64,000 nt of DNA from Lytechinus variegatus (Eukaryota > Echinodermata > Echinoidea > Temnopleuroida > Toxopneustidae), in contig NC_054758.1 of NCBI RefSeq assembly GCF_018143015.1, forward strand, positions 1 to 64,000, read 5' to 3'. The notes beneath the pieces were generated by a model. That model was not told the DNA's origin. It was given only the letters and a program-made list of their open reading frames with translations, and ran no database searches. Within the stretch, counting starts at the first letter, position 1. Each line of letters opens with the position of its first letter. Shown in pieces: positions 31,939 through 60,327 of this stretch. The position numbers were made by a program, and so were the translations under genes.

Positions 31939-32106
31939 CTTCAAGGTTGAAGCCTTCTCATTAAGATGAGAATATAACTCCTCCTGGTCACAAATGTCAC
32001 TTAGTTTCAGGTTAGTCAGGTTAGGTAGGGAGCATAAACATTCTACTAGGTGATGTAAAGAGGCTGATGATAGAGGCATATAACTCTCAATCTTAAGAGT
32101 ATGGAC
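31939..32106 (-). CDS. LRR exon 1 (leftmost intact)
   Basis: A 168-bp internal exon encoding 56 residues, spanning two 28-residue leucine-rich repeats of the NLR (ribonuclease-inhibitor-like) type. The acceptor is TGTACACATGTAG before 32106; the donor is TTGAAG/GTATGT at 31939/31938. Only phase 0 is open. Residues 1-30 include VHTL and LCSLPNLTNL; the second repeat starts DQEE and ends LNEKASTLK. Variable-site residues: K5, E7, S8, Y9, M10, C23, K34, S36, D37, I38. LRRs of this sort sense ligands or partners in innate-immune receptors. The specific receptor class is inferred from the repeat consensus alone. Confidence 0.8.
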
Positions 32107-32310
32107 CTACATGTGTACAAAAAATGATCATTAAACACACATGTACATATCAGATGGTATGATCATGCTGCAATGCTTCAAGTTAAACTGGTTCAAAAAT
32201 GTTTGAAACATAAATTAACATTTTAGCCTCCATACCTGTTTAGGCTTCACATCTTTTCTGTTGAGGTATATTTTGTTTAAGACTACACATTTTTAATACC
32301 TATGAATTTT
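32107..32310 (-). other. LRR-unit intron remnant upstream of exon 1
   Basis: Homologous to the sequence right of the other exons (TGTACATATCAGATGGTATG). It ends at ATGAATTTT (32302-32310), the 9-bp target word duplicated at the far side of PLE2 (37213-37221). Confidence 0.75.
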
Positions 32311-32326
32311 AAGAGAATCAAAAGTG

Positions 32327-32365
32327 GCCTAAGCTTTCGATCCTAGCAGAATCTTCTTCGGAGGC
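32327..32365 (-). ncRNA. Hammerhead-like ribozyme motif, PLE2 3' end
   Basis: Minus strand, in order: GCCT (helix I), CCGAAGA (core, with U4 changed to C), one extra A, GATTC/GGATC (helix II, loop TGCTA), GAAA, G-C plus A-U (helix III), CTT (cleavage triplet), AGGC (helix I partner). All three helices differ in sequence from the PLE1 motif yet pair. The U4 to C change would be expected to weaken cleavage in this copy. Confidence 0.5.
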
Positions 32366-33280
32366 AAAATGACAAACATATAAGGTGGAACAACCATAAT
32401 ATAGACCACAGACATTCAACAGCAACACTGGAGCAAGGAGACAAAAGGGGCATTAGTGAGAAAAGATAACCAATCAGGTTAATGAAGGCGATGAAAGAAA
32501 AGGAGTAGGCAAACACAAAGGGAAGTAGGTGTAAGGCCAAAGAAAGACCTCAAGACAAGAGGGATTAAGATAATGAGGCAGGCAACATCAAACAGGATCT
32601 GGAACAAAACAGTGATAGAGGGTATGAGGAAGAGATGAATGACAAGAGAATTTGTGAGAGGTGGGTCAAACAGGTAACAAAGAAAGGCATAATAAACTTG
32701 TGCATAAGAGTTAGAAAAAGGGAAAGAGAAGGGAACAACTGATAGTGTGCAAAAGACATAAGTATGTATGATAGAGCATTAAACAAACTAGAAGAAGACA
32801 ATAAATGTAAAAATAAATCTGTAAGTATAAAAGTATCCAAAAAGAAAAAAAAAATAAATATATATACAAATGGTGTAACTGATATTGTAATCCACTGGGT
32901 GTGAGGGGAAAAAACACAAGACTATAAGATAGAAAAAACCCTGTATATATGGAAGGGAAGCAAATTGCCTAAAAGTGTAAAAGCAAATAAAGAAGCTGAT
33001 GCTGTATGAGAGAGGGGGCCTATTGGGGGGGGGGGGGGGACATAGTAAACATGAAAAAAAGCAAAATAAATAAGTGATAAATCTAAGAGGTGAAGGGAGA
33101 GGGAAAAAAATATTTATATGAATAAATGTTATATCGCCTGAATAAGGGAGGAAAAATAGGAGCTGAGCTTGTATGAGATATGGGAGGAAAGTAGAGGCAG
33201 AAACTAAAATGTAACTAATCTAAAAGAGCTGAGGGAAAAAAACATGTGTATACAAATGGAAAGTGGATAAGAAGGATTAA

Positions 33281-33913
33281 TCAGTCGTTCCCCTCTTGGA
33301 TGTTCAGGCCATGAGGTTGGATGGTGCGAAGTCGTCTCATCCAGAACTTCTCTCTGCTAGTACGGACTGAGTCAGGACGGGTACCTAAAGATTTGATGCC
33401 CTGTAGCATCATGTCAGTGATGGAGTGGTTGGGAAGGTTAAAATGGCGGCCAACTGGAGTGTCCAGCTTTGCTGTGTTGACGGTGGATCTGTGCCCGTAG
33501 AATCGTTTCTTGAGTGTGGTCTTGGTTTCCCCTACGTATTGTACCCTACAAACTCTGCAAGTGATGAGATATACAACATTAGTGGTAGTGCAAGTGATGT
33601 TGCCCTTGGTTCGGTGAGAAAGGCTGGTAGAGTTGCTGGTGAGAGTGTCGCCCTCGTGAATGTGTATTTCACATATAATACACCTGTTGCTGGTGCATTT
33701 GAAGGCGGGTGCCATGCTGTATGGGAGAAGAATGGTTAGTGAGGGAGGGCAATTCAGCACGAACAATGAGGTCACTGAGATTCGGTGGGCGTCGGTATGC
33801 TACAATGGGAGTATCGGGAACGGCCTGTTGGAGACGATCAGAAGTGTGTAAAATGTGGTGGTTATGAAACAGGATTTTACGGAGAGGGGGTAGATTGGGA
33901 TGGAAGGTGGTCA
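33281..33913 (-). pseudogene. PLE2 RT C-terminus and GIY-YIG endonuclease
   Basis: Starts at the foldback junction with VTTFHPNLPPLRKIL and continues to VAYRRPPNLSDLIVRAEL, the conserved end of a Penelope-type RT. A frameshift near 33700-33745 leads into the nuclease: CTSNRCIICEIHIHEG, VVYLITCRVCRVQYVGET and LKKRFYGHRS, with Cys pairs and the YVGET form of GIY-YIG. It ends INPHGLNIQEGND-like at 33281. Dead through the frameshift and the upstream insertion. Confidence 0.85.
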
Positions 33914-33916
33914 CAA

Positions 33917-36684
33917 TAGTCCAGGATAGAAGAGGCATAACCTTGTTTTTTATATATACAATATTTTTTGATGGTTTCTTGTCAATTTGAGGGTGCTGAT
34001 TACAAATCTGGATGATGCCACTCGTGTAACCTTGAGCATTTTCCGCAAATTGGCAAAATCCAATATGGCCGCCAAAATATGCAAATAACCCATGAAAATC
34101 ATAAAATTTTCCGCACATTGGCTATGAAATGCATGCAATTGTGTGGCAGGAGTGAAATACTCTCTAAAAAAATAATTTTAAACAAAGTATTTATTTTTCT
34201 GATATTCAAAATGGCCGCCATAGGTCATTGTATACCTTATTATGTACAATATGAATAGGGAAAACTAATTTTCACAAAAATGAGCACTAAACTGCAAAAA
34301 ATCCCTATGTATGAACAAAGTAATATATGCAAATCATTATTACTAACGAGATATATCATTTATAATGTCATGTATGAGAACATTGCTGTATTTTGATATC
34401 TAAAATAGCCGCCACTGGCCCAAACAGTATTGCCCACAATGGCAATGGGGGCCAAAAAAATCACAAGAGTGATCACTGAAATGCTTATTATGAAGATTAA
34501 ACAGGTGGAATACTGACTATAAACATAATCATTAACGAAATATATTATTTATGTGCCATGTATGTGGTGAATGTTGCATTTTGATATTCAAAATGGCTGC
34601 CAAAGGCCTTAAAAGTATAATGCACAATGAAAAATGGTAGAAAGGAAATCACAAGAGTGAGCGCTAAAATGCATATATATATGTGATAAATTAATTGGAT
34701 ACTGTATAAAAACGTATTTTCGAACGAAATATATCATTCAGGTTTCAAGTTTGTGAAAAATACTGTATTTCGACTTTCAAAATGGCCGCCATCGACATTA
34801 ACTGTATTATGTACAATGCAACGTGGGAAACCAATATTCATAGAAGTGAGTACCATAATGCACGTAACAGTGATCTATGAGTAAAATATTGTCTGAAAGC
34901 ATGATTTCTAATAAGATATATCATTTATTCTGCCAGGTAGCTGATAAATACGGTTATTTAAAAGTCAAAATGGCCGCTACAGTCCATTACGGTATTATTC
35001 ACAATATGAATGGGAACAAATCATTTCAACATAATTTAGCTTTGCTTGGTCAAATGGTGATGTATGAGTGGAATGTTGTCTGAAAACATGATTTATAACA
35101 AAATATATCATATCTTATGTAATTTAGGTGATAAATACTGTATTTCAACATTCAAAATGGCTGCCATATGCCCATTTTGTGAACATTATTTGTCTCCACC
35201 CAAATTGTATATCATACGATAAGTGCCTATGGTGGCCATTTTCAATTTTAAAAATGCAGCATTTATCACCTTAATTACACAACATTATGATATATCTCGT
35301 TAGAAACCATGGTTTTAGACAATAATTCACCCTTACATCACAATTAACAATTATATGCAATATTTAGAGTCGAGCAAAGCCAAATTCTGTCAAAATTATA
35401 TGTCCCATGTTACAATGTACACAATACTTTTAGGACCTATGGCAGCCATTTTGGATTTCAAAGTACAGCATTTATCATACCTCCACCATATCCACGACCC
35501 ATATGTGATGTTTTTAGTTAGAAATAATGTTTAAGACAATATCTCTACTCGTACATCACAGTTATATGCATTTAATGATTCTCACTCTTGTGAAAATAAG
35601 CATCCCTGTTCGCATGTTACGTAATTTAGTTAGGGCTAGTAGAGGTTATTTTGAATGTCAAAAAAAGTATTTATCATCTATATGGAAGAAGAAATGCGAT
35701 GATTAAAAAAAAGTTTTCAAATAACGTGTTACTCATACAACAGGATTATATGGATGTCATAGTCTAGCATAATCCAAATTACATGTCCCAATTCATATTG
35801 TAAATAATACTGTTAGGGCCTATAGGGGCCATTTTGAATTTCATAATACAGTATTTATCTCATGTATGACTAAAGAAATGATATATCTTGCTATAAAACA
35901 TGTTGTCAGGCAATATTTTACTCATAGATCACAATTACATGCATTTTATGTTTCTTACTCGTGTGAAAATTAGTTTCTCCATTCGCATTGTACATGATGA
36001 ATATAGGGGCTATGGCGGCCATTTTGAATTTCAAAATACACCATTTATCACATAAATGGCATATTTGTTTTAAGTCAGTATTCCACTCGATTATCTTAAT
36101 AATATGCATTTTAATGCTCAATCTTGTCATTTTTTGGCCCGGCCATTGCCATTGTACATAATACTCTTTGGGCCAGTGGCGGCTATTTTAGATATCAAAA
36201 TACAGCAATGTTCCCATATTTGACATAATAAATAATATATCTCATTAGTAATGATGATTTGCATATATTACTTCCTTCATAAATTGCGATTTTTGTAGTT
36301 AAGTGTTAATTTTGGTGAAATTAGTTTTCCCTATTCGTATTGTACATGATAGTGTATACAATGGCCTATGGCGGCCATTTTGAATATCAGGAAAATAAAT
36401 ATTTCTTCAAAAATTATTTCTTAAGATTGTATTTCACTCCTGCCATGCAATTTCATGCATTTCACAGCCAATGTGTGGACAATTTTATGATTTTCATGGG
36501 TAATTTGCATATTTTGGCGGCCATATTGGATTTTGCCAATTTGCGGAAAATGCTCAAGGTTTCACGAGTGGCATCATCCAGATTCGTAATCAGCACCCTC
36601 GAATTGACAAGAAACCATCAAAAAATATTGTATATATAAAAAAACAAGGTTTGGTCAATTTTCTATGGGGCCTATCCTGGACTA
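33917..36684. mobile_element. Foldback element FB2, 2.77 kb, with ~187-bp subrepeats
   Basis: Bounded by the inverted 13-mer TAGTCCAGGATAG and a CAA duplication (33914-33916 and 36685-36687). The two arms are inverted copies to the centre near 35200-35300. Each arm is a chain of about seven diverged units with the landmark CAAAATGGCCGCCAT: left near 34060, 34210, 34402, 34590, 34780, 34967 and 35152; right, reversed, near 35228, 35445, 35828, 36013, 36175, 36370 and 36518. No protein frame. Removing it restores the PLE2 RT reading I-P-L-V-T-T across the junction. Confidence 0.88.
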
Positions 36685-36687
36685 CAA

Positions 36688-37205
36688 GTGGTATTCTGTC
36701 GGTAGTCTTCTTGTCACTTTTAGGTTTGAGAACTTCAGATCTAGGGAGAACAAACTTTGTTGATTGTCATTTGCCAGTTGGACTGCCCTGGCCCCGTGGC
36801 CTCTGGCACAGAGATGTTTCAGCAAATTCCTGGTATGGAAGGAAAAATCAGGGGCCTCGGAGCAGATACGGCGAAGTCTGAGGGCTTGACTGTAAGCGAT
36901 GCCGGTTTTGCAGTGACGGGGGTGGCAGCTGGATGAGTGGAGGTACTGGTGGGTATCTGTACAGGGTAGTGGTGATACCGTTAGGCCTTTTCTGGACTGT
37001 GACATCAAGGAAGTGGGTTTCCTGTTGGGAGAAATCAGAAGTGAATTTGATGGTCCTGTGGAAGGAATTGATGTGGTCATTGAATGTGTGGAGGCTATCT
37101 TCCTCCCTGGTCCAGATGAAGAAAATGTCGTCTATGTAAAACGCCACCGAATCCATGGGCGACAGGGGCAGAATCTAACATCTGCTGTTCCAGCTTGGTC
37201 ATGAA
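36688..37205 (-). pseudogene. PLE2 reverse transcriptase fragment
   Basis: Minus frames give FMTKLEQQML, then FYIDDIFFIWT (YxDD active site), HRTIKFTSDFS and THFLDVTVQK. After a frameshift near 36960 comes TDTHQYLHSSSCHPRHCKTG followed by YSQALRLRRICS. All are Penelope-type RT blocks. The N-terminal half, through motif B, is missing at the 5' truncation point (37212). Confidence 0.85.
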
Positions 37206-37221
37206 GAGACCAATGAATTTT

Positions 37222-37790
37222 GAAAGAATGAATTATTACAGGTAATATATGCACCCTTATTCTACATTACATCATCACTTTTAACAATTATGAGATATCA
37301 TGAAAATGATTAATTTAAGATCATACATAAGACCATAATAATATCAGATACTCTGTGATATGTTTGTTACTTCATATTTGTGTTCTATTTTCAGTAACCT
37401 TTTACCCTACATACCATCTCAATCTAAACCACCTGGTCATTGTTCATGTCAGCCTATTGTTATGTTTCATGTATACACTCAATGTAGCTCTCACTGTACT
37501 GTATACATTGTAACTATGTATCATGGTCAATATCACTCTCATATACATTCCACATGCACCTCTGATATTCAATGATCTACTTTCTCTTCCACCTTTTTGA
37601 AGCTGATATTTCTCTTTATATCTTCCATGTGTATTATCACATTAGAGATGACTAGGAAGAATCACATATGGATAAACTTAAAAGGTTTCTGTGTTTCTAC
37701 ATCTAAATCAACCGTATCCAAACATTTGGAACATTTATCAACTACAGCATGCCTGTAAACTCCAACCCAATTAAAAAAAAACACATATAG
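37222..37790 (-). other. LRR-unit intron with conserved block
   Basis: Homologous to the intron left of exon 2 in the other units, including the 240-bp block at 37390-37635. No exon signature. Confidence 0.75.
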
Positions 37791-38009
37791 TGGGTGTTGC
37801 AAGAATATATCTGCGATCAATTGCAAATATTCTGTTGCAAATTTACAACTGATCGATCAACGTTAGTCATAGCAAATCAGATTAATCTTCTTGTTTCAAG
37901 GAGCAAATTAGCAATCAATCACTAATTTGAAATTAACTGCAAGAGACATGATTGATTTAGGGACCGAAAATTGACTTGCAATTGATCACAAGTTTCTTGC
38001 AACACCCCA
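37791..38009. mobile_element. 219-bp MITE
   Basis: The ends are inverted: TGGGTGTTGCAAGAA at the left, TTCTTGCAACACCCCA at the right, with GATCAATTGCAA continuing the arms to about 35 bp. It is absent from the matching place of the neighbouring LRR units. A short TAG/CTAG context flanks it; the target duplication is not clear. Confidence 0.8.
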
Positions 38010-38147
38010 CTAGTCTTCTTTATTTATAAAAAAATCTAAATAGTATAAAAAATATGTTCTCTGATGGGTTTAACACTATACAAAAAACCCACTGCATTAT
38101 TCCATATTTTCAAACATGTTATGAGTATAAAGTAGAAGCAAGCATAC

Positions 38148-38315
38148 CTTCAAGATTGAAGCCTTCTCATTCAGATGGGAATAGAACTCCTCCTGGTCAG
38201 AATTTCCTCTCAGTATCAGGTTAATCAGGTTAGGTAGGGAGCATAAAAATTCTGCTAGGTGATGTGAAGAGGCTGATGATAGAGGCTCATAATGATTAAT
38301 CACAAGAGTATGGAC
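38148..38315 (-). CDS. LRR exon 2
   Basis: Same structure and phase as exon 1; acceptor CATGTAG, donor TTGAAG/GTATGC. Distinct residues: V5, N7, H8, Y9, E10, A21, F23, I34, R36, G37, N38, S39. Cys39 of the other exons is Ser. All structural Leu/Pro/Asn positions are kept. Confidence 0.8.
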
Positions 38316-38402
38316 CTACATGTGTACAAACATTGATCATTAAACATACATGTACATATCATGGAGGGCGCTATATCGACATGGAGGGTGCTATATCGAC
38401 TA

Positions 38403-39062
38403 ATACCAATCAATTCAATTCAATTTTATTTATATCACTTCCATCAAACAAAAACAAATTGTATACCATATATATAAAAATAAGTATTTGTATCCATTGC
38501 AAAGAAACAAAAATAATAATACATATGTTGTGAAAAAAAAACTTACACGATTTGGGCAACACATTGGAGGTTTTAAATAAGTATACTATTTTTCAATAGA
38601 AATTAAATTAAGATGGAAATGGAGGGACCCACTAAAAAGCAATGCTTGTACAATGTGGGCCCCTCAAAAATAGATAACAAAACCAATAACAGAGTACAAA
38701 TACAGACATATGTAATCAAATGAGAAAAAAAATAAATGAGAGAGAAATAATACTCACAAAATATAAAAAACGAAGATATCAAAAAATATAGTTTGTATAG
38801 GACAAAACAACCCGTCCTAAAATATATCCACCCTTCCCCCCCCAAAAAAAAAAAAGAAAAGAGAAAGGGGAGAATGCCCTGAGAAGATGGATGGGTGCTG
38901 CTAAACGTAGGTAGAACACATGCCATCGTGGACTCAAGCAAACTGGATTCAATGTGTATAAAAGGAGAAAAAAATATATAAAATGACCTGGAAAGAATAA
39001 AATGCGCGAAAAATGTGATTGATGCCGTAAATAAATAAATAAGCGGTAGGAAGGCGGATAAT
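38403..39062 (-). mobile_element. 5'-truncated copy of LINE E (3' 655 bp)
   Basis: Reverse complement of 58800-59455: the same 3' UTR, the G/C homopolymer and the (AATTG)n tail. No coding sequence is left. Two nearby GGAGGGYGCTATATCGAC repeats (38365-38400) adjoin its tail end. Confidence 0.88.
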
Positions 39063-40640
39063 CATAATTTTGCTGGTGAATTTTCAAAGTAAAATCTGTT
39101 ATTTTTGCAACTTTTATATAATTTCGGACTCGTTGTATCAAACTATTTTGTTGGACTAACCGTGCAATCTACTTCGAGTGAAATTTTGGACATCAGCATG
39201 TATCCTAGAAGTGCGAGTAAACGTCACAAAAAGAAGCGAGGATCATCCAAAAAAGACCATGATGTCCTGGGCAGCCCAGTGGCCCGAGGGCAACTCACAT
39301 GTCCGAAGAGGATGACAACTCTCCTTTTGCTGGTCGGCCACCCAAATCGCCGACCACTCCAGGGCCTATTCATCTTGAAGACTTGAATGAAACTCTAACC
39401 ATGAACGCATTGTCAAAGCCCTTGGTAATCAGAAAGTGATTGATACAATAACAAAGACTGTAACAAAAGCTATCCTGGATACAGTGACCCAAAGGGTGTA
39501 TCAATCACTGGACTACGACGTCCAAGCGAAACTTTCAAAGATTCAAAAACTCGAAAAAAAGAAATAGATGATGTAGTACGCACGTCTGTGCAACTCATAA
39601 GCTATATTGTGAGCAAGCAGCAGAGTGCCATTGGAAGGAGCGCCAGCTACGGCAGAGGACCGACCAGAGCAGTTGCTTTTCATGGCTTCGAATCGTTAAG
39701 ACGTACCTCTGGAATCGTCGGAAATCCTGAATCCGTTGAGTAATCGGACTTTTTGGATCGATATTTGGGCAGAGTGTGTTCGAGTGATCACCACCTGGTC
39801 AACCTTGGGCACGTTTTGGGGAGTCTCGAGCTACGGAAAGAACTTTATTTTCACCTTACTTTTTCGTCTTGCACTTTCATATTTCGCGGTGCATTACATA
39901 ATACATGGGCCCATGACTCGTTGCTGAATTAAATGTTAACAATATCCCTGATGCGGAACGTAAAGTGGAGAATCTCACACTTAAGACACAAAGTGCTCTA
40001 ATCAGATATTTCAAAAGGACTCATAGATTTCAAATTGGCTGCCCGGATGGCAACCATCTTAACAGGGTGTAGTCAAGAGTAAAGAGAACTAAACTTTAGC
40101 AAATTATTACTTTCGTGACCATAATACCTTGCTGAGCAAAGTGTATATAATTATTCATATTTTTCGGGGGTAATTCTTTATGATGTTTTCACCGAATTAA
40201 TCTATGTGTGCACCTTTATTGTCACTTTCACTTTATCACATGGCCCTTGAATGTCAGTATTTACTCTACTATAAATGTTTTCGCTTTTAAAAAAATGATA
40301 ATGTTGATATGGTTCCGATCGATTTGACATAAATTTGCACCTGCGGAATTTAAATCAAGTTCCACGAGGTATTGGATAGAGCGCCCCCTGCTTACTTCTT
40401 CTTCTTCTTAGATTGGTTTGAGTGGCGATTAGTCATATTTGACTATTGTCGCCATTTACTCTATTAATAAAAAATCTCACTTCTCACATAATAAAAATTA
40501 TTACCAATACATATGTGAAATATTTTTCATGTGCATCCTTCTAATATGAAAAAGGGATAATTATGGTATAGTTTGCCGTAAATGGCGTAACTCTAATCAA
40601 AATGGCATATAAACAAATCTTCACCAAAAACAAACCGCTA
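39063..40640 (+). other. Unrecognised segment with a weak ORF1-like frame
   Basis: From 39199 a frame reads MYPRSASKRHKKKRGSSKKD. After a shift near 39300 it continues with an acidic, Pro-rich stretch and an amphipathic SKIQKLEKKEIDDVV to about 39715. A basic start followed by a coiled-coil-like part resembles a LINE ORF1, but no RRM, zinc knuckle or esterase block follows. The rest (39930-40640) shows nothing recognisable. Confidence 0.3.
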
Positions 40641-41005
40641 GCTCAGTTCCAACTAGTTGCGCTTGCCCTGTCCTTTCAAGATGCAATCATACCGGTCAGC
40701 ACGGTACATTGTGCCGATTTTTCGGACGTAAATGCCTAGGTCACCCATGCATAGACGAGGGGGCGCTAGTGTACCTGTGATTACAGATGGGTTAAACATT
40801 AAAATAATTTGTTTCTTTTTTTTAAAAAAAAACATCAACAAGGCGAAAACACTTGTAGGCTTTGTTAGTTATATGTGCAGAACATATTGTATATATTATA
40901 TCATACATTATTATGTATATATATATATTTTTTCTTTTCACATTACTTGTACAATCATATCCTTTCATATTTCTTAATAAACAATACAATATAAAAAATA
41001 GTACA

Positions 41006-44000
41006 TCATTCCTTACTGAAACGTTTCGTTCTTGAAACGAAACGTAAAAGTGCTTTCTGTATCCCTGGATCATCTTTTTTTAAATACTCCATTATTTGTC
41101 CAGGCTGTGATTCATTCAAATCTACAAGGAGCATTGATCTTTCAATTATATATTTTGGACAATGTAAAAGATAATGTCTGACAGTTTCTACCTCACGACA
41201 TGTATCACAAAACCCTGTTTGATGGATCCCTAATCTATGTAGATCTTGGTTAAGACCAGCGACTCCAAAACGGAGACGATGGAGCACAGTTTCCTGTCTC
41301 CCTAGATTACATTTATATGTGGGTAACACTGATGGTTGCAACTCTTTCAGTGCTGAGTTAGTTTTATTCCATCTTTCTTGCCAAACTATCTTACAACTTT
41401 TTGAAATAAGTTGCATAATCTTGATAATGTTATTTGATTATGAATTTCTATTTTGTTTGATAAAGCTTTTTTTTGCGCAGGAGTCTGCTATTTCATTTCC
41501 TTTTATTCCACAATGACCAGGGATCCACTCTAGGTATATATCTAAACCTTTATATTTTAGTCTTGTAGAATAGTCAGAATTAGTAGGATCGTCTTTCCGA
41601 TTCTGTAAAGATAAAAGTGCACTTAATGAATCACTGAAAATAACAACACCTGTATATATATCTAAATATTCTATCCATTCCAGTGCAAGAATAATCGCAA
41701 TCAATTCCGCCCTGTAGGAGGAGGTGAAATTAGATAACCTTTTGCCTTGGTAAAAAGCAAAATAAGGTACGTAGAAAGCGGCTGAACTAATTCCCTTTTC
41801 AGGAGCTTTGGATCCATCAGTGTATATATGGAATTGGTGTAACCATTTTGTATGTATCAGTTCCAAACTCAGTTGTTGCAATTGTATTGGATGGTCCGAT
41901 TTCTTAATTTGTGAACTTAATTCAGTAGATATAACTGGTGGACAAAATAACCAAGGGGGAAAGGCTGGAGAAATAATATTTTCAATACTAATTTCTTTTC
42001 CTATCTTGGATTGAAGCCTATAACCAAACGGTTTACTAACGTTCTTACCTTTAAGATAATCGAACTGCCAACATGGTTTGATACGTGTTATTAATGGGTG
42101 ATTACTATGTCTTTTTATATTTTGTCTGTACTTGCTTGATAACATTTGCCTTCTTAAATCTAAAGGAGGTTCTCCCATTTCCACCTGCAGTGAAACTAGC
42201 GATGACAACGGCAGCCCGCCAGCACATATTCTGAGTGCTTGATATTGCACCGAGTCTAACAACTCTTTTGTAGTTACTGGAGCACTATCATAAGCTTGAC
42301 AACCATAATAAAAAATTGATCTAATAATTGCCCTGTAAACCATGAGTAAGGACTTAGATGAATTTCCCCATTTATTTATTTATTTATTTATTTATTAGAA
42401 CATATTTAATCAGGTACAAAAGATCAGTATAAAACTGTTTTTCATCAATGACCTGATGAAAACATAAAGAATAACACAAATCATCATATCATACATGAAA
42501 ATATAGTCAAAATCTAAATCAAAGATTTAGTTCCTGTTAAACTTCGCAATATATTTAGTTTCCTTTTACTTCTTGAAACTACGTTCTCTATATGGGGAAG
42601 CCAAGACAATTTGCTATCAAATATCATTCCTAGGAAACGGTGATTATTTTTATAAGTGAGTATACTCCCTTCAAACTTGACTGTTGGAGGTGTAACGTTT
42701 GTAAGCTTAGTGAAAAATACCGGAACAGTCTTCTCAATAGAAAAATTGAATCCCCAGTCTTTAAACCAGGTACATAATATATCTAGATAAGTTTGTATCC
42801 TTAATCTAATATTCTCTACATTTTTTCCAGAAAACCATATTGCACAATCATCAGCATATATGGATATTGTCACTTCAGGATCAATTGGAATATCTCTCAT
42901 CATGACATATTTCCTCCTATACCACATTGAGCTAGTTTGTACAGTAATCCATCAATCCAAAGACTGTCATAAGCCTTTTCGACATCCAAAAATACTGCAA
43001 GAGTGTGCTCACTGCAATTGATAGATTTTTGAATGTCATTTTCTAATAAAACAATATTGTCAGTTGTACTACGACCTTTTCTAAAACCGCTGATGAAATT
43101 AGGCAATAAGTTATTTTTATCTATGTACCACTGCAATCTATTTTTTATCATACGCTCTATAACTTTGACAAAACAAGATGTAAGTGATATTGGTCTGTAA
43201 GAGATAACGTTTTTTGAGTCCTTACCAGATTTCAAGATTGGCACTGAAATTGAGTGTTTTAGAGAACTCGGGATATCCCCAGATTCCCATATTCTATTAA
43301 TAATGTTCAACATAATTTCTTTTGTGTTTTTTGGCATATTTTCGTATACAATGTATGGAATATTATCTTTTCCTGGAGCAGCAAATTTAGTAGATTTAAC
43401 TGCTTTCTCAAATTCATTCATCGAGAAAGGTTCATTAATGACATGTTCATTTTGGTAGAAAGAGTTTTGTACTTCCTTTGTTAATGTTTTATTGATATCT
43501 TGTTTTTTGTGTCCTAAGGATTGGAAAAAAGTTCCAAAAATCTCTACTCTCTCTGGTAAGGACGTAATGGCTTTACTTTTCTCAATCAAAATAGGCATAT
43601 TTTGTGATTTTTTGACAGGTACGCCATTTAAACGTTTTATACATGACCATATCTTTGTCTCTGGCATGAATCTGTCTAGTCTTCTGCAAAAAGCTTGCCA
43701 ATATTCTCTTTCCGCTTTCCGGAGAACTCGTTTGGCTTCTGCCTTCTTTTTTTTGTATTCGTTAATTCTATCAAGTGTAATTTTTCTTGCTAGATGGTTT
43801 CTTATTCTATTTCTTTCTTTAATCTTTTCAGTACATTCCTTGTTCCACCATGGGACAGGATTTTTTCCTGTCTTTCTTTTTTTTGGAATTGCTTCATGAA
43901 TACATTCTTTCAAGCGTTCCATAAATGTATGAAAAATGTTCTGAATATCATCTTCAGAATTCATTATTTCATTTTTTTATAACATTTTCACATTTGTATG

Positions 44001-44766: not shown

Positions 44767-44776
44767 GAAGAAAGCG

Positions 44777-50466: not shown

Positions 50467-50930
50467 ATAAACTTTCAAAGTTATGATGGCAATTCAACAG
50501 ATACCCAATTCAGCCAAAGTTCATTGACCCTAAATGACCTTTGACCTTAATCATGAGACCTGAAACTTGCACAAAATGTTCAGTGATGCTTGATTACTAT
50601 TATGTCCATGTTTCATGAATCAGATCCATAAACTTTCAAAGTTATGATGGGAATTCAACAGATATCCCCAATTCGGCCAAAGTTCATTGACCCTAAATGA
50701 CCTTTGACCTTGGTCATGTGACATGAAACTCTACTGGATGTTCAGTAATACTTGATTAACATTATGGCCAAGTTTCATGAACTAGGTCCATATACTTTCT
50801 AAGTTATGATGTCATTTAAAAAACTTAACCTCAGGTTAAGATTTGATGTTGACGCCGCCCCGTCGCCGTCGGAAAAGCGGCACCTATAGTCTCACTCTGC
50901 TATGCAGTTGAGACAATAAAACGACAAAAA
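50467..50930. repeat. ~163-bp tandem repeat with DR1 motifs
   Basis: Two-plus units share AAACTTTCAAAGTTATGATG, CAAAGTTCATTGACCC and TGACCTTTGACCT (50535-50547 and 50698-50710). The last unit continues into a G+C-rich end with GACGCCGCC and GAAAAGCGGCACC. I recall similar repeats as common in marine invertebrate genomes; that is memory, not a search result. Confidence 0.8.
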
Positions 50931-51819
50931 AAATATCAGATGGTATGATCATGCTGCAATGCTTCAAGTAAAACGGGTTAAAAAATGTGTTGATAAGGCT
51001 AACGTTTGTGTCACAACATAACATTTTAGCATCCATACCTGTTAGGCTTCACAGCTTTTCTGTTGAGGTGTATTTTGTTAAAGGACTACACAGATCTATT
51101 AATCTTGAAAGAATGAATTATTACAGGTACGGTAATCTCTGTACCCTTATTCTACATTACAGCATCACTTTCAACAATTTCTGAGATATCACGAAAATGA
51201 TCAATTTAAGATCATACATGTAAAGACCATAATAATCTCAGATACTCTATGATATGTTTGTTACTCCATATTTGTATTCTATTTTCAGTAACCTTTTACC
51301 CTGCATACCATCTCAATCTAAACCACCTGGTCATTGTTCATGTCATCCTATTGTTATGTTTCATGTATACACTCAATGTAGCTCTCACTGTACTGTATGT
51401 ATCATGGTCAATATCACTCTCATACACATACCACATGCACCTCTGATATTCAATGATCTAATTTCTCTCCTAACTTTTAAAAGCTGATATTTCTCTTTAT
51501 ATCTTCCATGTATACCAATTTTATGAGATGTCTTTTAAAACTCACAGATGGACAAAGTTGTTAACAATTTCTTACTTCTGCATCAATCATAACCAAACAC
51601 TTGATGATAATATTTTTCAATTACAGCATACCTGTGCATTAAATTTCCAACATATTTACTCATCTAGTCTCCTTTATTAATGCACACCCCTTAATACATG
51701 TAGTATTAAAAAAACATCTGTTCTTTAATGTATTTAACGCAATAAAATTAGATAGAGGCAAGTTTTCATTATTTCATGTTTTCAAACATGTTATGAGTAT
51801 AAAGTAGAAGCAAGCATAC

Positions 51820-51987
51820 CTTCAAGGTTGAAGCCTTCTCATTCAGATGAGAACAGAACTCCTCCTGGTCACAAAATCCACTCAGTGTCAGGTTAGTCAG
51901 GTTAGGTAGGGAGCATAAACCTTCTGCTAGGTGATGTGACGAGGCTGATGATAGAGGCTCATTATTCCAAATGTCAAGAGTATGGAC
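51820..51987 (-). CDS. LRR exon 3
   Basis: Acceptor CACATGTAG before 51987, donor TTGAAG/GTATGC at 51820/51819. Distinct residues: D5, W7, N8, N9, A21, G23, T34, S36, F38, C45. Aromatic residues at sites 7 and 38 are unique to this exon. Confidence 0.8.
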
Positions 51988-52193
51988 CTACATGTGTACA
52001 AACATTGATCATTAAACATACACATACATCAGATGATATGATCATGCTGTAATGCTTCAAGTTAAACTGGTTCAATAATGTGTTGATAATGCTAATGTAC
52101 ACTGTATGCATAGATGTATTTCACAACATAACATTTTAGCATCCATACCTGTGTAGGTTTTACAGCTTTTCTGTTGAGGTGTATTTTGTTTAA

Positions 52194-52796
52194 AGGTCAA
52201 ATCCACCCCAGAAAAATGTTGATTTGAATCAATAGAGAAAAATCAGACAAGCATAATGCTGAAAATTTCATCAAAATCGGATGTGAAATAAGAAAGTTAT
52301 GGCATTTTAAAGTTTCGCTTATTTTCAACAAAATAGTTATATGAACGAGCCAGTTACATCCAAATGAGAGAGTCGATGATATCACTCACTCACTATTTCT
52401 TTTGTTTTTTATTGTTTGAATTATACAATATTTCAATTTTTACGAATTTGACGATTATGACCTCCTTGCCTGAAGCACAAAATGTTAAAATAATGGAATT
52501 CCATGTGTTCAGGGAGGAATGAAACTTCATTTCACATGACAATGACGAGAAAATAAAAATATTTCATATTTCATATAATAAAATACAAGAGAAATAGTGA
52601 GTGAGTGATGTCATCAACTCTCTCATTTTGATGTAACTGGCTCGTTCATAAAACTATTTTGTTAAAAATAAGCGAAACTTTAAAATGCCATAACTTTCTT
52701 AATTTACATCCGGATATGATGAAATTTTCAGTGTTATGCTTGTAGATTTTTTCTCTTTTTATTCAAATCAAGTTTTTGTTCGGGTTGACTTGTCCT
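52194..52796. mobile_element. 603-bp palindromic MITE with TTAA target
   Basis: TTAA lies at both edges (52190-52193 and 52797-52800). The termini are AGGTCAAATCCACCCC and, reversed, AGGACAAGTCAACCCG. The arms stay complementary for roughly 250 bp (GTTATGGCATTTTAAAGTTT; AGTGAGTGAGTGATGTCATC). The neighbouring LRR units lack it. TTAA suggests a piggyBac or Kolobok partner. Confidence 0.88.
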
Positions 52797-53531
52797 TTAA
52801 GGACTACACATTTTAATACCAATGAAATTTGACAGAAGAGATTATTACCGGTAATCTCTGTACCCTTATTCTACATTACAGCAACACTTTCAACAATTTC
52901 TGAGATATCATGATAATGATATCAATTAAAGATCATACATGTGAAGACCTTAATAATCCCAGATACTCTGTGATATATTTGCTACTTCATATTTGTATAT
53001 TTTCAGTAACTTTTACCCTGCATACCATCTCAATCTAAACCACCGGGTCATTGTTCATTTCATCCTATTATTATGTTCCATGTATACACTCAATGTAGCT
53101 CTCACTGTACTGTATACATTGTATATATCATGGTCAATATCACTCTCATACACATACCACATGCACCTCTGATATTCAATGATCTACTTTCTCTCTCATC
53201 TTTTTCTTTTTCTTTTCTCTTGATATCTTAAATGTGTATTATCATAAGAGATGAATAGGAAGAATCACATATATAGATAAAGTTAGAAAGGATTCCATGT
53301 TTCGACATCATAACCAAACACCCGAAGATAATGACAATTTCTCAATTGCAGCATACCTGTGCATTAGAACCAAATTATATTTAAAAAAAATCTTAAACCC
53401 TCTCAAACAATCTATCAACCAGCATAAAAAATTATGTTCTCTAACATATTTAAACACTATAAAATAAAAAAAACACTGCTTTATTCCATATTTTCAAACA
53501 TGTTATATGTATAAAGTAGAAGCAAGCATAC

Positions 53532-53699
53532 CTTCAAGGTTGAAGCCTTCTCATTCAGATTAAAACAGAACTCATCCTGGTCACAAACTCCATCTACTAT
53601 CAGGTTAGTCAGGTTAGGTAGGGAGCATACAGCTTCTACTAGGTGATGTGAAGAGGCTGATGATAGAGGCTCATTATTCCCAATCTCAAGAGTATGGAC
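53532..53699 (-). CDS. LRR exon 4
   Basis: Acceptor CACATGTAG, donor TTGAAG/GTATGC. Distinct residues: E5, G7, N8, N9, A23, V24, I34, V35, D36, V38. In the second repeat D42, C45, F46 and N47 differ from the common E, Y, S, H. It is the most diverged of the five in the second repeat. Confidence 0.8.
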
Positions 53700-53961
53700 C
53701 TACATGTGTACAAACATTGACCATTAAACATTCATGTACATATCAGATTGTATGATCATGCTGTAATGCTTCAAGTTAAACTGGTTCAATAATGTGTTGA
53801 TAATGCTAATGTACACTGTATGCATAGATGTATTTCACAACATAACATTTTAGCATCCATACCTGTGTAGGTTTTACAGCTTTTCTGTTGAGGTGTATTT
53901 TGTTTTGGACTACACATTTTAATACCTACGAATTTTGAAAGAATGGATTATTACCGGTAAT

Positions 53962-55503
53962 TAGTTACGATACAAATATTTTCTCGTGATTAACCTAAAA
54001 TCTCGATCTTTTCCTTTCTGTTTATGCAAATACACTGTCCCGATATTCCTTTGAAGAATTTGCTTCGATTCACGCCTCAAACTGGCACCATTTGGTTAGA
54101 TAAGTCATTTGTCTACATGATAAAGGAGGGACTCTCTCCCTCCCAAATATTTCAATTAACGCTAAATAGATCAGTGCGTGCACACCATGACCATTGTGAA
54201 CCAGGGTCTTCAGGCAGTTAGTATCATTGCTGTATTCACATTATTTGTATTAACTCTTCTTTCCTTCCCACATATTTTGCCCTCAGGCTCATACCAATCT
54301 GGAATTCGTTCAGGATTATTTTTTTACAACATATTAGGGACGGGTCCAAGAGATTTACACCATTACATTTCACATTCACTGGTTATTTTATGATCCCTCC
54401 TTTTGAAACTATTCTTTCTAAACGCTCCTATCATGAGGAATTGATTTCGAGCCCAATGCGCAGAAGACTTTAATCCTCCTAATAATAGAGGGTAGCCTCC
54501 ATACGATCCCTCGCATCACTGCAACCTATTACGCACAGTACTTCATACATTCACTCTGGGTCATGACCCATCATGGTCGTTTGGTTCTCGTTTTCCAAAT
54601 AATTTAGATATTGAGAACTAGCCGACCCTGTTGGGTCGTGACCTATAGTTTATTGTTCTATCAAATCTGCTAATTCCTTCTCAATGAAGTCTTCAACGAT
54701 TATTCAAATCGCTCATCCAGTTGGAAGTATTACGACCTCCGCTCACACCCGATTATGTTTACAGTACCCATCAAAACAGCATCTTATCAGTGTGGGTAAG
54801 CCTTTTCACACATGATTCCATACTCTGTTTTAGTAATGCTAGAACCAAAATATACACAAATGTTACTTTAATTTCAAGGAGATACATTTTGATTATTTAA
54901 ATGCAAAACTTTTTCCCACTTTATCCATTTGCATCTGACCTTAACTACTTGTTATCAATAGTCAGAGTTCTTATTTTTTTCAATTTTCTTAGGATATGAT
55001 TTAACACTTTGCTATTGAATGCGTATGATTTATATTAATTAATTTCTGCTCCATACTTATAATAGGGTGTAATTTCAAAAAAGTATACATTTTCGTTTTT
55101 GTGAAATCGGGTTCTCGCTTGAACCTCCCTTACATGATACGTCATTTTCATTTACCATTATTTTGCTCTCTACTGCCCTCTACAGGTGCCTTCGTGGGCT
55201 CAAGCAACGGACAATACACATGCTCAAAACTGCGGCTTGTTCACCCTTCAATACACAATAAGCGGACTTCCTTTGCCTCTTCTCTCATCATGCTCAAAGG
55301 TTCCCTGAACCGCCTTTCTGTATCGTGCTTTGTATGTTGTAAGTTCCCTTTCTTTTCGTTTCTGCTTCAGTACCTCTTCTCATTCATGCACGTGACTATT
55401 GTATATCTGTTCCTGACCGGGACTTGTATTTCAGATTTCACTCTTCCTGTTATAGACATTCTAATGTCAACTAAAAAATTGTGTTTTCTGATTTTTCTTT
55501 AAT
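53962..55503 (+). other. 5' leader of LINE E
   Basis: No ORF1 domain recognised; short frames at 54024-54393 and 55101-55502 lack zinc knuckles, RRM or esterase motifs. It presumably holds the internal promoter. Confidence 0.5.
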
Positions 55504-58500
55504 ATGGCAAATTCGGTAGATACACCATTCAATTCAGTTAACGATGATGACTTTCTTGACTTGTTTAGGCCATCCTTAGTAGAAAGTGAATCAGACATAA
55601 ATCCTCATATTACTTCCTTTGAAAACCATGTTACAGACAAATTTAATTCTTCGTCACAAGAGTTGAATTATGATTTTGACACTGATAACCAATTTCAAAG
55701 TCCATATTCTGAATACATCACCCATAACCAATTTAATAATGTTGTTAAGGATTATGATAACTCATCTTTTTCTCTTATACACCTTAATATTAGGAGCATT
55801 AACAAACACTTTGATGAATTACGGTTACTTTTAAATAATCCCACCATGCAAACATTCTCAGTAGTAGGTTTAACCGAAACATGGCTTTCTCATGATACAA
55901 GCCTTCCATTAGCTCTCGATGGATATGATCTTTTAGTTAACAACAGACAAAATAGGGTGGGTGGGGGCGTTGCGTTATATGTTTCACAATCATATGATTA
56001 TGTAGTTCGAGACGAGCTTAACAGCATGACTGATACAATTGAATCTCTTTTTATTGAAATTACTATCCCCAACAGCAAAAACATTATCATAGGTGTTATA
56101 TACAGGCCTCCGAGTTCGAACATCAAATCATTTTTAGATCATCTCTCTGACTTGGTTAAAAATCCAATTTTTTATAGTAAAAATTGCTTTATAATGGGCG
56201 ATTTTAATATTGATTTATTAAAACAAAATAATGTTACACAAGATTTTTTGGAAATATTTCTATCCGCTTCTTACTTACCTTTAATATCTAAACCAACACG
56301 CATAGTCAATGAATCCGCTTCTCTTATTGATAATATTTTCTGTAATGTTCTTCCCCCACCCGATTCCTTCATATTACTCTCTGATATCACAGATCACTTC
56401 CCTGTTTCGACTAATTTCTCTTTAAAAGACAGATTCAATAACAATAGCCGTCCACTAAAACGAAGAATAACACACGAAAATATAGCTCGTCTGGGTGCTA
56501 GTTTTGACGATGCTGATTGGTCTTGTGTTTTTGATAGTAATGACGTTAACTTGTCCTTTGAAAATTTTATGAATATTTTTAATCTACACTTTGACAATTA
56601 TATTCCGAAACTTAGAGATAAGCCATCTAACTACAAAACATCACCGAAGCTTCCATGGATTTCTAAATCGCTCTTGCGTTCGATAAATAGAAAAAATAAC
56701 TTATATTATAGATACAAAATGAAACGGTCTGAGCAATCCAAACTTAAATATACTTGTTATAAAAATACACTGACAAAGATTATACGTTTAGAAAAGAAAA
56801 GATATTTTACTAATCAGTTACAACTTTACAAGCGTGATATGCAAAATACATGGAAAATTTTAAAACAAGCAATGAATATATCAAATAATAAATCCAATAT
56901 TACAAAAATTAGATCTGGCGATGTCATTTTTGAAGATTCTCTCCAAATTTGTAATATCCTGAATAATCACTTTTCTTCAATTGGGGAAAATCTTGCAAGT
57001 AATATTCCTCCCGCAGCAAAACACTTTTCTGAATTTTTAGGCCCACCAAATTCTAGTTCAATGTTTCTCGCTCCAACTTATAATCAGGAGATAATTAATA
57101 TTGTTTCTGATTTCAGTTCTAAAAAAGTACAGGACATGATGACATCAATAATTTTCTTCTTAAGGGGGTAATATCGTCAATTGCGGATCCCCTAACTCAT
57201 ATATTCAATCTGTCACTTCTTAACGGCATTGTTCCCGAGAGCATGAAAATAGCAAAAGTCATTCCTTTGTTTAAAAAGGGTGACAAATTAGATGTTAATA
57301 ATTACCGCCCAATTTCTTTGTTATCTACATTGTCGAAAATACTAGAAAAGATTATTTATAAAAGAACTATTAATTTTCTCAAATCAAATAATATACTTTC
57401 AAATTCCCAATTTGGATTTAGGGAAAAGCATAGCACTACACATGCATTATTGAGTTTCATTGAAAAAGCGGCACATTCAATCGATAAATCTTCTCATTTA
57501 ATTGGTTTGTTCCTGGACTTCTCCAAGGCCTTCGACACATTAATCATGATATTTTACTAAACAAATTACATCATTATGGAGTGCGTGGGAAGGCCTTGGA
57601 GTGGTTCAGGAGCTACCTCTTGAATAGGAAGCAATATGTCTTTTTAAACGGATGCAATTCTCAAATGAAAAGAAATAATTGTGGAGTTCCACAGGGTAGT
57701 CTTTTAGGCCCGATTTTGTTTATAGTTTATATTAATGATTTTTGTAGATCATCAGATGTTCTTTCTTTCATTCTCTTTGCGGACGACTCTAACTTATTTT
57801 TTTCACATAAAAATCCTCTTCACCTTGCCAATACAATCAACTCTGAACTAAAAAATGTCACCCAATGGATAAGAGCAAATAAATTGTCAATAAATTTACA
57901 AAAAACAAAATATATGTTGTTTAGCAACTCTATTAATACACTTCCTGTTGATATTATTTTGGATGGAACTCCCTTGGAAAAAGTATCCCATATTAAGTTT
58001 CTTGGAATAACAGTCGATAATAAGCTCTCATGGAAATTCCACATAGATAACATATGTAAAACTATTTCACGCAACATTGGTATAATTAACAAGCTTAAAT
58101 TTTGTTTACCATTATCGTCCCTGCTTACATTATATTCATCCCTTATATTACCGTATTTAAATTATGGAATTTTAGCGTGGGGCAACACACATCAAACACT
58201 CCTAGACAAATTACTCCTATTACAAAAGAAATCTCTACGTGTCATATGTCACAAAGCATATTTGTCTCATACTGACACATTATTTTTGGAACATAAAATA
58301 TTGAAAATTAAAGACTTGTATTTGTTCAATCTCGGTCAGTTTATGTACAATTATAACAATAACAACCTCCCAAATGTATTTCATTCAATGTTTCCAAAAA
58401 ATCAATCCATTCATAACTATCCAACAAGGCGATTGGGCGAATTCCATTTACCACTTCTAAGAACTTTGCTGGCTCAGAACACATTTATATATGAGGGACC

Positions 58501-58681
58501 GAAGTTATGGAACTCACTTCATAATGATATAAGAACTGCAAAATCTTTGAACTCTTTTAAGACTAAATTCAAATTATCTCTATTAAAATCTTATAATGTA
58601 TCCTCAAATTTAATCTTATTCATCATCTCTGTCAAGAGGTTAGTCATCATTTTTACTATAAAGACTATAATTAAAACATAA
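55504..58681 (+). pseudogene. LINE E endonuclease-reverse transcriptase, two single-base breaks
   Basis: Starts MANSVDTPFNSVNDDD after an in-frame spacer. Endonuclease at about residues 90-300: LIHLNIRSINKHFDEL, GLTETWLS, GVIYRPPSS, MGDFNID and DITDHFPVS, all key acidic/His sites present. RT: NYRPISLLSTLSKIL, FGFREKHSTTHALL, FLDFSKAFDT, CGVPQGSLLGPILF, FILFADDSNLF and FLGITVDNKLSW. It ends with KLWNSLHNDIRTAKSLNSFK and a short hydrophobic tail. One base is missing in an A-run near 57125 and one near 57540; otherwise it is open. The damage is small enough that recent activity, or sequencing error at the A-run, is plausible. Confidence 0.88.
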
Positions 58682-60159
58682 ATCATCCCTTTTTTTTATT
58701 GAAAAAAAAAAATCTGACACAAGTCCTTCCCAATTGTGCTCGGTTTTTAACCTCATATATTATTTGTGTCTATCCTCTCATCTTTTTTCTCTTTCCTGTC
58801 CGCTTATCCGCCTTCCTACCGCTTATTTATTTACGGCATCACATTTTTCGCGCATTTTATTCTTTCCAGGTCATTTTATATATTTTTTTCTCCTTTTATA
58901 CACATTGAATCCAGTTTGCTTGAGTCCACGATGGCATGTGTTCTACCTACGTTTAGCAGCACCCATCCATCTTCTCAGGGCATTCTCCCCTTTCTCTTTT
59001 CTTTTTTTTTGGGGGGGGGGGGTGGGAAGGGTGGATATATTTTAGGACGATTTGTTTTGTCCTATACAAACTATATTTTTTGATATCTTCGTATTTTATA
59101 TTTTGTGAGTATTTCTCATATATTTTTTTCTCATTTGATTACATATGTCTGTATTTGTACTCTGTTAATGGTTTTGTTATCTATTTTTGAGGGGCCCACA
59201 TTGTACAAGCATTGCTTTTTAGTGGGTCCCTCCATTTCCATCTTAATTTAATTTCTATTGAAAAATAGTATACTTATTTAAAACCTCCAATGTGTTGCCC
59301 AAATCGTGTAAGTTTTTTTTTTCACAACATATGTATTATTATTTTTGTTTCTTTGCAATGGATACAAATACTTATTTTTTATATATATGGTATACAATTT
59401 GTTTTTGTTTGATGGAAGTGAAATAAATAAAATTGAATTGAATTGAATTAAATTGAATTAATCTATGTACCCTTATTTTACATTACAACAACACTTTCAA
59501 CAATTTCTGAGATATCATAATAATGATATCAATTAAAGATCTATGTGAAGACCTTAATAATCCCAGATACTCTGTGATATATTTGTTACTTCATATTTGT
59601 ATTCTATTTTCAGTAACCTTTTACCCTGCATACCATCTCAATCTAAACCACCTGGTCATTGTTCATTTCATCCTATTATTATGTTTCATGTATACACTCA
59701 ACGTAGCTCTCACTGTACTGAATACATTGTATGTATCATGGTCAATATCACTCCCATACCACATGCACCTCTGATATTCAATGATCTAATTTCTCTCCTA
59801 ACTTTTAAAAGCTGATATTTCTCTTAATCTTCCATGTGTATTATCATAAGAGATGACTAGGAAGAATCACATATATGGATAAAGTTAAAAAGGATTCCGT
59901 GTTTCGACATCATAACCAAACACCTGAAGATAATGAATTGACAATTTCTCAATTACAGCATACCTGTGCATTAGAACCAAATTATATTTTTTAAAAAATC
60001 TTATATAGTCTCCTTTACTTATAAACCCTCTCAAACAATCTATCTAACCAGCATAAAAATTATGTTCTCTAACATTTTTAACACTATAAAGTAAAAAAAA
60101 ACACTGCTTTATTCCATATTCTCAAACATGTTATATGTATAAAGTAGAAGCAAGCATAC

Positions 60160-60327
60160 CTTCAAGGTTGATGCCTTCTCATTCAGATGAGAATAGAATT
60201 CCTCCTGGTCACAAACTCCTCTCAGTGTCAGGTTAGTCAGGTTAGGTAGGGAGCATAAAGCTCCTACTAGGTGATGTGAAGAGGCTGATGATAGAGGCTC
60301 AACATTCCGAATTTCAAGAGTATGGAC
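60160..60327 (-). CDS. LRR exon 5 (rightmost intact)
   Basis: Acceptor CACATGTAG before 60327, donor TTGAAG/GTATGC at 60160/60159. Distinct residues: E5, R7, N8, V9, G22, A23, T34, R36, V38. It is the first of the five to be translated. Its upstream intron holds the 1.68-kb DNA transposon and continues out of the window. Confidence 0.8.

Follow-up and report, generated by a model that had tools for sequence, protein, structure and literature searches.

How animals without rearranging receptors achieve specific recognition is an open question, and several described systems bear on it. The available portions of the published accounts put the NLR genes of Strongylocentrotus purpuratus at more than 200, with Death-domain NLRs dominating in sea urchin (PMC13043383, PMC12909245). 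Human NLRP3 carries two LRRs on each frame-neutral 171 bp exon, which can be skipped or added in frame (PMC6642158), and the zebrafish NLR-B30.2 family comprises hundreds of NLRs in which one NACHT exon precedes LRRs on single exons, with an LRR number of 0-6 in most groups and with gene conversion (PMC4852459). Outside animals, brown-algal LRR-ROCO genes have tandem same-phase LRR exons with exon shuffling and selection on four concave-face sites (PMC11378527). In the fungal het-d/het-e NLRs, which vary in repeat number, concerted evolution keeps the repeats similar, with unequal crossing-over as its proposed route, but a small set of interface codons diversifies (PMC12222747).

We analysed the first 64,000 nucleotides of Lytechinus variegatus contig NC_054758.1 (C19; hereafter the window). 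A bindin-core match of 95% fits an echinoid genome, bindin being a marker of sea urchins. CCCTAA repeats fill roughly the first 390 bp of the window, whose first 500 bases contain 51 copies, and this bears out the near-telomere location given in the first-pass annotation. That annotation also listed five open 168-bp exons of phase 0/0 in a common splice context, and direct reading of the sequence agrees (Table 1). Each is an open 56-codon frame flanked by ...ACATGTAG and GTATG, with stops in the other five frames of its interval. The exons share 68-84% protein identity in pairs (tblastn E about 1e-20 to 4e-27), far above chance, and exon 1 is up to 95% identical to copies on a second contig, C6. 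We call the repeats LRRs because of their repeat pattern and the linked NACHT and Death exons described below; profile support is marginal. The profile search suggested earlier for the repeat succeeded for the five exons joined (LRR_4, 27.2 bits against a cut-off of 27, E 4e-6), barely above the threshold, but not for the three scanned singly, which matched no Pfam LRR family. The joined exons of one C6 array fell just under the same cut-off, at 26.2 bits. Sequence searches for PDB relatives gave a best E of 0.83 in one case and nothing up to 0.1 in a second, and Rfam returned 0 matches on the window.

Table 1. Features of the LRR exon array in the C19 window, listed in the direction of the minus strand.
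Feature	Position	Strand	Description
Array leader	62385..63871	-	unit-like intron without 168-bp exon (62385-62742) and more divergent piece (63321-63871)
Insert, leader to unit 1	60703..62384	.	self-comparison
Unit with exon 1	59459..60702	-	blastn self-comparison
LRR exon 1 (transcription order)	60160..60327	-	168 bp, two 28-residue LRRs, phase 0/0
Insert, units 1/2	53962..59458	+	non-LTR-type retroelement: endonuclease 55492-57168, RVT_1 57488-58678
Unit with exon 2	52796..53961	-	blastn self-comparison
LRR exon 2	53532..53699	-	168 bp, phase 0/0
Self-inverted element of ~0.6 kb, units 2/3	52191..52800	.	79% match to own reverse complement
Unit with exon 3	50933..52190	-	blastn self-comparison
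LRR exon 3	51820..51987	-	168 bp, phase 0/0
Insert of 12.6 kb, units 3/4	38362..50932	-	retroelement frames: RVT_1 42903-43976, RNase_H 41441-42379
Unit with exon 4	37207..38361	-	blastn self-comparison
LRR exon 4	38148..38315	-	168 bp, phase 0/0
Insert of 4.9 kb, units 4/5	32319..37206	-	GIY-YIG frame 33284-33799; inverted repeats 33939-36651
Unit with exon 5	31364..32318	-	blastn self-comparison
LRR exon 5, last in array	31939..32106	-	168 bp, phase 0/0
Downstream flank	29807..31363	-	conserved with C6 genes; degenerate LRR-like piece near 30974-31042

The exons had been placed in tandem units of about 1.1 kb, which does not describe the window: their starts lie 6.2, 13.7, 1.7 and 6.6 kb apart. 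A blastn self-comparison rules out a regular 1.1-kb array here, finding homologous blocks of about 1.0-1.3 kb around the exons with unrelated sequence in between; the units are thus interrupted by inserts, three of which bear retroelement frames. In the insert that separates the leader from unit 1, positions 61521-61787 resemble the inverted arms at 23595-26658 at about 95.6%, and the 3' intron of exon 4 differs from that of the other units (about 37780-38009 is non-homologous). The pieces of the array leader have matches in the leaders of C6 genes; a divergent LRR exon was looked for in the leader and none was seen. A search for a 3' terminal exon found none.

An NLR-type gene had been proposed, with an effector-domain exon beyond position 64,000 on the minus strand, and both predictions are supported. 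A NACHT exon lies outside the window at C19:73.5-75.1 kb, upstream of the LRR exons on the same strand (Pfam PF05729, E 5.3e-21), with Death exons at 76.5 kb (inner) and 79.5 kb (outer). The region from about 18 to 81 kb is colinear with the paralogous C6:1.301-1.327 Mb. One outer-type Death exon of C6 matches Pfam PF00531 Death (E 7e-7), while the inner type has no Pfam match of its own and was recognised by its 53% identity to the outer type. The NACHT donor (GCG|GTAAGT, phase 0) fits the LRR exons, and the phases of NACHT (1,0) and LRR (0,0), read by eye, are compatible. We infer, on the basis of their order, phase, strand and splice sites, that the window exons would be joined in splicing both to each other and to the NACHT exon. 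Read likewise by eye, the Death exons both apparently have a phase-2 start and a phase-1 end. They cannot then join in frame without an exon between them, and we rejected the label 'Death-Death-NACHT'; the two may instead be alternatives.

Similar genes are found on C6, where the region 0.2-1.65 Mb holds 12 open-frame NACHT genes with 1-8 similar two-LRR exons downstream of each, amid at least 99 NACHT matches genome-wide. We allotted 48 exons to these genes, every one of the 12 receiving some, by position alone; for the gene with its NACHT exon at 464 kb, the array is 46 kb away. Here the tandem units of about 1.1 kb are usual, with 25 of the 36 neighbour spacings at 1.08-1.13 kb and five of the 11 multi-exon arrays wholly regular. 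The idea that symmetric exons let units be gained or lost in frame also stands, as the frame-neutral exons number 1-8 among paralogues. As a route to copy-number diversity it fits the C6 paralogues, which differ in unit number and show signs of recombination, but not the C19 locus, which is irregular and probably dead. The CCCTAA repeat is absent from the first 2 kb of the C6 contig, and we therefore refrain from describing this cluster as subtelomeric. The cluster is likely the parent family of the C19 locus, which probably reached the end of C19 by copying from it.

We consider the C19 copy a probable pseudogene because both its NACHT exon and its outer Death exon are frameshifted. Compared with three C6 genes, the NACHT exon has a frameshift and then a stop ahead of the LRRs, giving an open frame of 528 aa against 600-690 aa in all 12 C6 copies (closest: C6:1321076, 94% over 512 aa). 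Translation would end before the LRRs, making this copy a pseudogene or at best a receptor lacking its sensor. Since the five LRR exons are open, the gene either died recently or still matters; under random substitution, all five stayed free of stops in 0.035 of trials, and the probability is 0.20 when only the excess of C19 over C6 is counted.

For the sequence statistics, we located exons with a pattern requiring part of codons 1-3 and codon 56. It recovered 41 of 42 exons in the 10 regions examined, all with one common splice-site and phase pattern; these regions include 37 of the 48 C6 exons, in nine of the 12 arrays. Leaving out two 180-bp exons gave a set of 39 (34 from C6, five from C19). 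The list of predicted concave codons was set after viewing the window exons and their relatives and before counting, and codons 1-3 and 56 were excluded from a pN/pS recount. Among the 34 C6 exons, pN/pS is 0.219/0.035 at predicted concave codons and 0.040/0.029 elsewhere, with bootstrap intervals for pN-pS of 0.097 to 0.268 and -0.016 to 0.040, respectively. Entropy across the 39 exons is 1.23 bits at the 11 predicted concave positions against 0.24 bits at the others (permutation p 1e-5). The correspondence is not perfect: positions 21, 22, 24 and 45 are variable (0.8-1.4 bits) off the list, and the listed positions 3 and 32 are invariant, position 3 because the search pattern fixes it. Overall, these LRR sequences look as though they have been selected for a varied predicted binding face.

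Paralogous C6 units also appear to recombine, a conclusion supported by two observations: linkage between sites decays with distance, and units are barely closer within an array than between arrays. Across the 34 C6 units, r2 falls from 0.406 (<10 bp) to 0.037 and is at background beyond 600 bp, shuffled pairs giving 0.034. Dropping three outlier units preserves the decay (0.426 to 0.039) and leaves a weak correlation across the exon of up to 0.22. The distance matrices of the 5' and 3' introns are not correlated, though each is internally reliable. Near-equal distances within and between arrays reject strong homogenisation inside each gene's own array. The units are not wholly mixed, given this residual correlation and the 8 of 34 cases in which the nearest neighbours of exon and 5' intron lie in one array (3 expected). 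Divergence on C19 is 0.077-0.149 between exons and 0.036-0.089 between each exon and its closest C6 exon.

Could the concave variation reflect relaxed constraint in a redundant repeat, with low synonymous divergence the product of recent homogenisation only? Exon pS (0.03) lies well below distal intron divergence (0.13-0.15), so the exon ratio is possibly inflated by constraint or homogenisation, and this low denominator would partly drive it. The remaining C6 codons likewise give a pN/pS near 1.4, and their bootstrap interval spans zero difference. Yet concave pN (0.22) exceeds not only pS at the same codons but also NACHT pS (0.04-0.09) and the distal intron divergence, and many residues of the scaffold do not vary, which makes this account fairly unlikely in our view. 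That the window array is mere repetitive DNA with chance open frames deserves almost no credence: the three exons scanned singly do score below the Pfam LRR families, but the variation is codon-structured, the splice-site and phase pattern is shared by all but one of the exons examined, and such exons follow every C6 NACHT gene.

Two other accounts concern the C19 copy itself. Its frameshifts could be assembly errors, or they might be rare alleles, in which case the locus would be an expressed NLR with five LRR exons and long introns. The open inner Death exon and the five LRR exons with open splice sites and frames are in keeping with this, as is NACHT pN/pS, which ranges over 0.325-0.468 in six pairs of four genes (0.335, 0.423 and 0.436 for C19 against three C6 copies; 0.325, 0.393 and 0.468 among the latter). 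Nevertheless, two separate frameshifts fall in two conserved domain exons, and all 12 C6 NACHT exons are open; we judge a functional C19 gene unlikely. Pseudogene V segments in birds serve as gene conversion donors, and by analogy the LRR exons of a dead C19 copy might feed the C6 genes. Exon 5 would suit such a role, being a mosaic: its 3' intron is 1.4% from the C6 unit at 0.41 Mb, but the exon itself differs by at least 8.9% from every one of the 34 C6 exons compared, and at 20 of 168 bases from the exon of that same unit. Shuffling within C6 before the copy moved would be just as likely to yield such mosaics, and our comparison of C19 with C6 exons traced no C6 tract to C19, so we regard a donor role as very improbable.

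We are thus reasonably confident that the C19 array is the sensor end of a probably dead Death/NACHT/LRR gene whose C6 family recombines and is under selection at concave residues. Transcribed from the minus strand, the C19 gene would extend from near C19:79.8 kb to near 30 kb. Within the family, unequal crossing-over and gene conversion would add, drop and re-pair LRR units with the frame kept, selection on concave residues would maintain diverse binding surfaces, and the NACHT engine would stay under purifying constraint. Frame-neutral sensor exons, recombination between paralogues and variation on the predicted binding face would together be checkable signs of a germline diversification system, in a cluster as small as 12 genes and 1.4 Mb. 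More tentatively, and with the balance of our judgement against it, the C6 cluster may be a recombining cassette library, in which the two-LRR exons of 12 receptors exchange via conserved exon cores to give haplotype-specific combinations of binding faces, and from which dead subtelomeric copies such as C19 are shed; it would then be an animal NLR counterpart of brown-algal LRR shuffling and of the fungal repeat NLRs. If this were true and exons were also skipped, each transcript could carry its own binding-face combination.

Compared with the systems described so far, the locus fits the echinoid NLR expansion in its host genome, its wealth of NACHT matches and its upstream Death exons, although the available portions of the echinoid accounts (PMC13043383, PMC12909245) describe no similar LRR exon cassettes, unit-number differences or inter-unit recombination. 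With vertebrate NLRs such as NLRP3 it shares two LRRs per frame-neutral exon (168 bp here, 171 bp there), but the modularity described there is tied to alternative splicing, whereas here cassettes vary from one to eight between paralogues and recombine. A NACHT exon ahead of LRRs on single exons, varying LRR number and probable gene conversion recall zebrafish NLR-B30.2, where, as far as the consulted text goes, the LRRs are not particularly variable and it is B30.2 that has diversified; here the predicted concave face of the LRRs varies. Tandem same-phase LRR exons, shuffling and concave-face selection are shared with brown-algal LRR-ROCO genes. Those combine 72-bp one-LRR phase-2 exons with a ROC-COR GTPase, whereas this animal family combines 168-bp two-LRR phase-0 exons with NACHT, and the resemblance is one of exons and not of membership. 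Like the fungal repeat NLRs, the family has sensor repeats that are much alike (a mean of 89% column identity across 32 of the 41 exons; the window exons, at 68-84%, are less so) and diversifies a few codons of an interface, here a predicted one (concave pN 0.22 against pS 0.035). The fungal repeats are WD40, however, whereas these are LRRs in separate exons with exchange apparently across genes over about 1.4 Mb, and repeat number, which varies in the fungi, is known here from one assembly and between paralogues. Modular repeats, shuffled and selected repeats, and homogenised repeats are each known elsewhere; their combination in an animal NLR appears new relative to the systems compared here.

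The window corresponds to C19:1–64000, and CCCTAA repeat makes up roughly its first 390 bp. Its five minus-strand LRR exons, each encoding two leucine-rich repeats, are exactly 168 bp long with a single open frame, phase 0 at both ends and identical acceptors and donors, just as the first-pass annotation described them. Self-comparison shows homology extending around each exon, giving units some 1.0–1.3 kb long. The regular 1.1-kb spacing also proposed there is wrong, as inserts interrupt the units (see table), and the three long between-unit inserts contain retroelement frames.

Inserts in the window and Death-exon homologues beyond it (contig C19 coordinates)
Feature	Coordinates
Insert separating units	32319–37206
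Insert separating units	38362–50932
Insert separating units	52191–52800
Insert separating units	53962–59458
Insert	60703–62384
Homologue of C6 Death exon	76764–76486
Homologue of C6 Death exon	79760–79474

Elsewhere in the window, at 24088-25878, a minus-strand frame encodes reverse transcriptase and GIY-YIG domains and is flanked by 793-nt inverted arms, 100% complementary; the whole (23595-26658) resembles a recent Penelope-like element. It falls within a local duplication, in its second copy (18233-20224 vs 22099-26920); the duplication carries a three-fold 121-bp tandem repeat twice (18694-19051 and 22559-22916). The sequence around these repeats also matches a region of contig C6 adjoining an NLR gene.

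An effector-domain exon had been expected upstream on the minus strand, and we found an open NACHT frame there, beyond the window (C19:73515–75098; Pfam NACHT, 5.3e-21). This exon ends in GCG|GTAAGT at phase 0, compatible with the LRR exons. Dispersed repeats aside, each piece of the locus is colinear with C6:1,300,995–1,327,071, which also holds the closest NACHT (94%). Two Death exons are shared with C6, where one Death exon scores PF00531 at 7.2e-7. Read by eye, both seem to have a phase 2 start and a phase 1 end, in C19 and C6 alike, so that joining one to the other would break the frame; they may provide alternative N-termini.

The C19 copy is probably a dead gene. An alignment to three C6 genes shows a frame shift near the end of its NACHT exon, followed by a stop, leaving 528 aa open vs 600–690 aa in 12/12 C6 genes; the outer Death exon (near 79.5 kb) is frame-shifted as well. 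An assembly error could also produce such shifts. The inner Death exon (near 76.5 kb) and all five LRR exons keep open frames, an outcome seen for the LRR exons in 3.5% of trials of free drift (20% under a laxer count). As free drift would be expected to introduce stops, the loss of the gene may be recent.

Searching the genome (870 Mb, 33 contigs) with the LRR exon gave at least 70 matches among 135 scored candidates: 48 at C6:218–1,644 kb, every one of them minus-strand, with another 5 in the window and 17 on C8 (all lower bounds). Allotted by position to the 12 C6 NACHT exons of the same subfamily, the C6 exons sort into one array per gene (12/12), with at least 5, 4, 2, 4, 1, 3, 4, 5, 4, 8, 4 and 4 exons. 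Neighbours lie 1.08–1.13 kb apart in 25/36 pairs. The Pfam NACHT family has at least 99 matches genome-wide. Separately, a bindin-core query found a 95% match, by which we take the genome to be that of an echinoid; it hit two loci of equal score, C13:18602033 and 24947774, which the assembly may have kept as duplicated haplotypes.

The way the C6 units vary is best explained by exchange between paralogous units, with switching near the conserved exon core. In 34 units, association between biallelic sites weakens with distance: r2 is 0.406 at <10 bp, 0.146 at 50–149 bp, 0.046 at 300–599 bp and 0.037 at ≥600 bp, with 0.034 for shuffled pairs, and site pairs showing all four gametes rise from 24/125 at <10 bp to 1643/2132 at ≥300 bp. 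Distance matrices are intercorrelated among 5' intron windows (0.6, 0.31, 0.25) and among 3' intron windows (0.17–0.72), while 5' and 3' matrices do not correlate with each other in these units (−0.14 to 0.10). Split-half reliability is 0.58–0.89 for intron windows and lower for exon windows (0.17 and 0.45). Three units with badly aligning stretches inflate some distances; dropping them (n = 31) leaves the r2 decay unchanged (0.426 to 0.039) and gives 5'–3' correlations of −0.04 to 0.22, so residual linkage may exist. Units are nearly as distant within arrays as between them (exon 0.057 vs 0.062; introns 0.143 vs 0.154 and 0.128 vs 0.129), and the nearest neighbour lies in the same array for 8/34 exons, 4/34 3' introns and 8/34 5' introns (3 expected). 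Unequal crossing-over and gene conversion, taken together, are the probable means of this exchange.

The C19 units are mixed: every exon has a C6 exon closer to it than the other C19 exons are, while some introns are nearest to one another. Window 31939-32106 and C6:417647-417814 form a striking mosaic; their 3' introns are 1.4% apart and their exons differ at 20/168 bases (15 nonsynonymous and 2 synonymous codons).

Variation is concentrated at the predicted concave β-strand positions, listed before counting but with the window exons and their relatives already in view (entropy 1.23 vs 0.24 bits elsewhere; permutation p = 1e-5; 39 exons). Residues also vary outside this list (positions 21, 22, 24 and 45), and listed positions 3 and 32 are invariant, the former fixed by the search pattern. 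In 34 C6 exons with pattern-forced codons removed, pN and pS are 0.219 and 0.035 for concave codons and 0.040 and 0.029 for the others; NACHT pN/pS is 0.325–0.468 (six pairs of four exons). These ratios call for caution, as exon pS is low compared with distal introns (0.13–0.15), the exon being part of a conserved island that takes in some 90 bp upstream of it. Concave pN nevertheless exceeds every yardstick: pS of the same codons, NACHT pS and distal-intron divergence. Among C6 units, the roughly 65 bp of intron directly upstream differ by 0.006-0.021 vs 0.063 for the exon, while the aligned 3' intron is almost fixed at its far end (0.007; 31 units). These intron stretches may be a splicing signal or a recombination core.

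Sea urchins have more than 200 NLR genes (PMC13043383), among which Death-domain types dominate (PMC12909245). Among the matches listed (titles and abstract openings, with subscription literature mostly outside), none deals with cassettes of LRR exons in the NLRs of echinoids. Human NLRP3 LRR exons are two-LRR cassettes that preserve the frame (PMC6642158), brown-algal ROCO genes combine LRR exon shuffling with concave-face selection (PMC11378527), the fungal het-d and het-e genes have homogenised repeats with hypervariable interface codons (PMC12222747), and zebrafish NLRs vary in LRR number, with the LRRs themselves described as not notably variable (PMC4852459).
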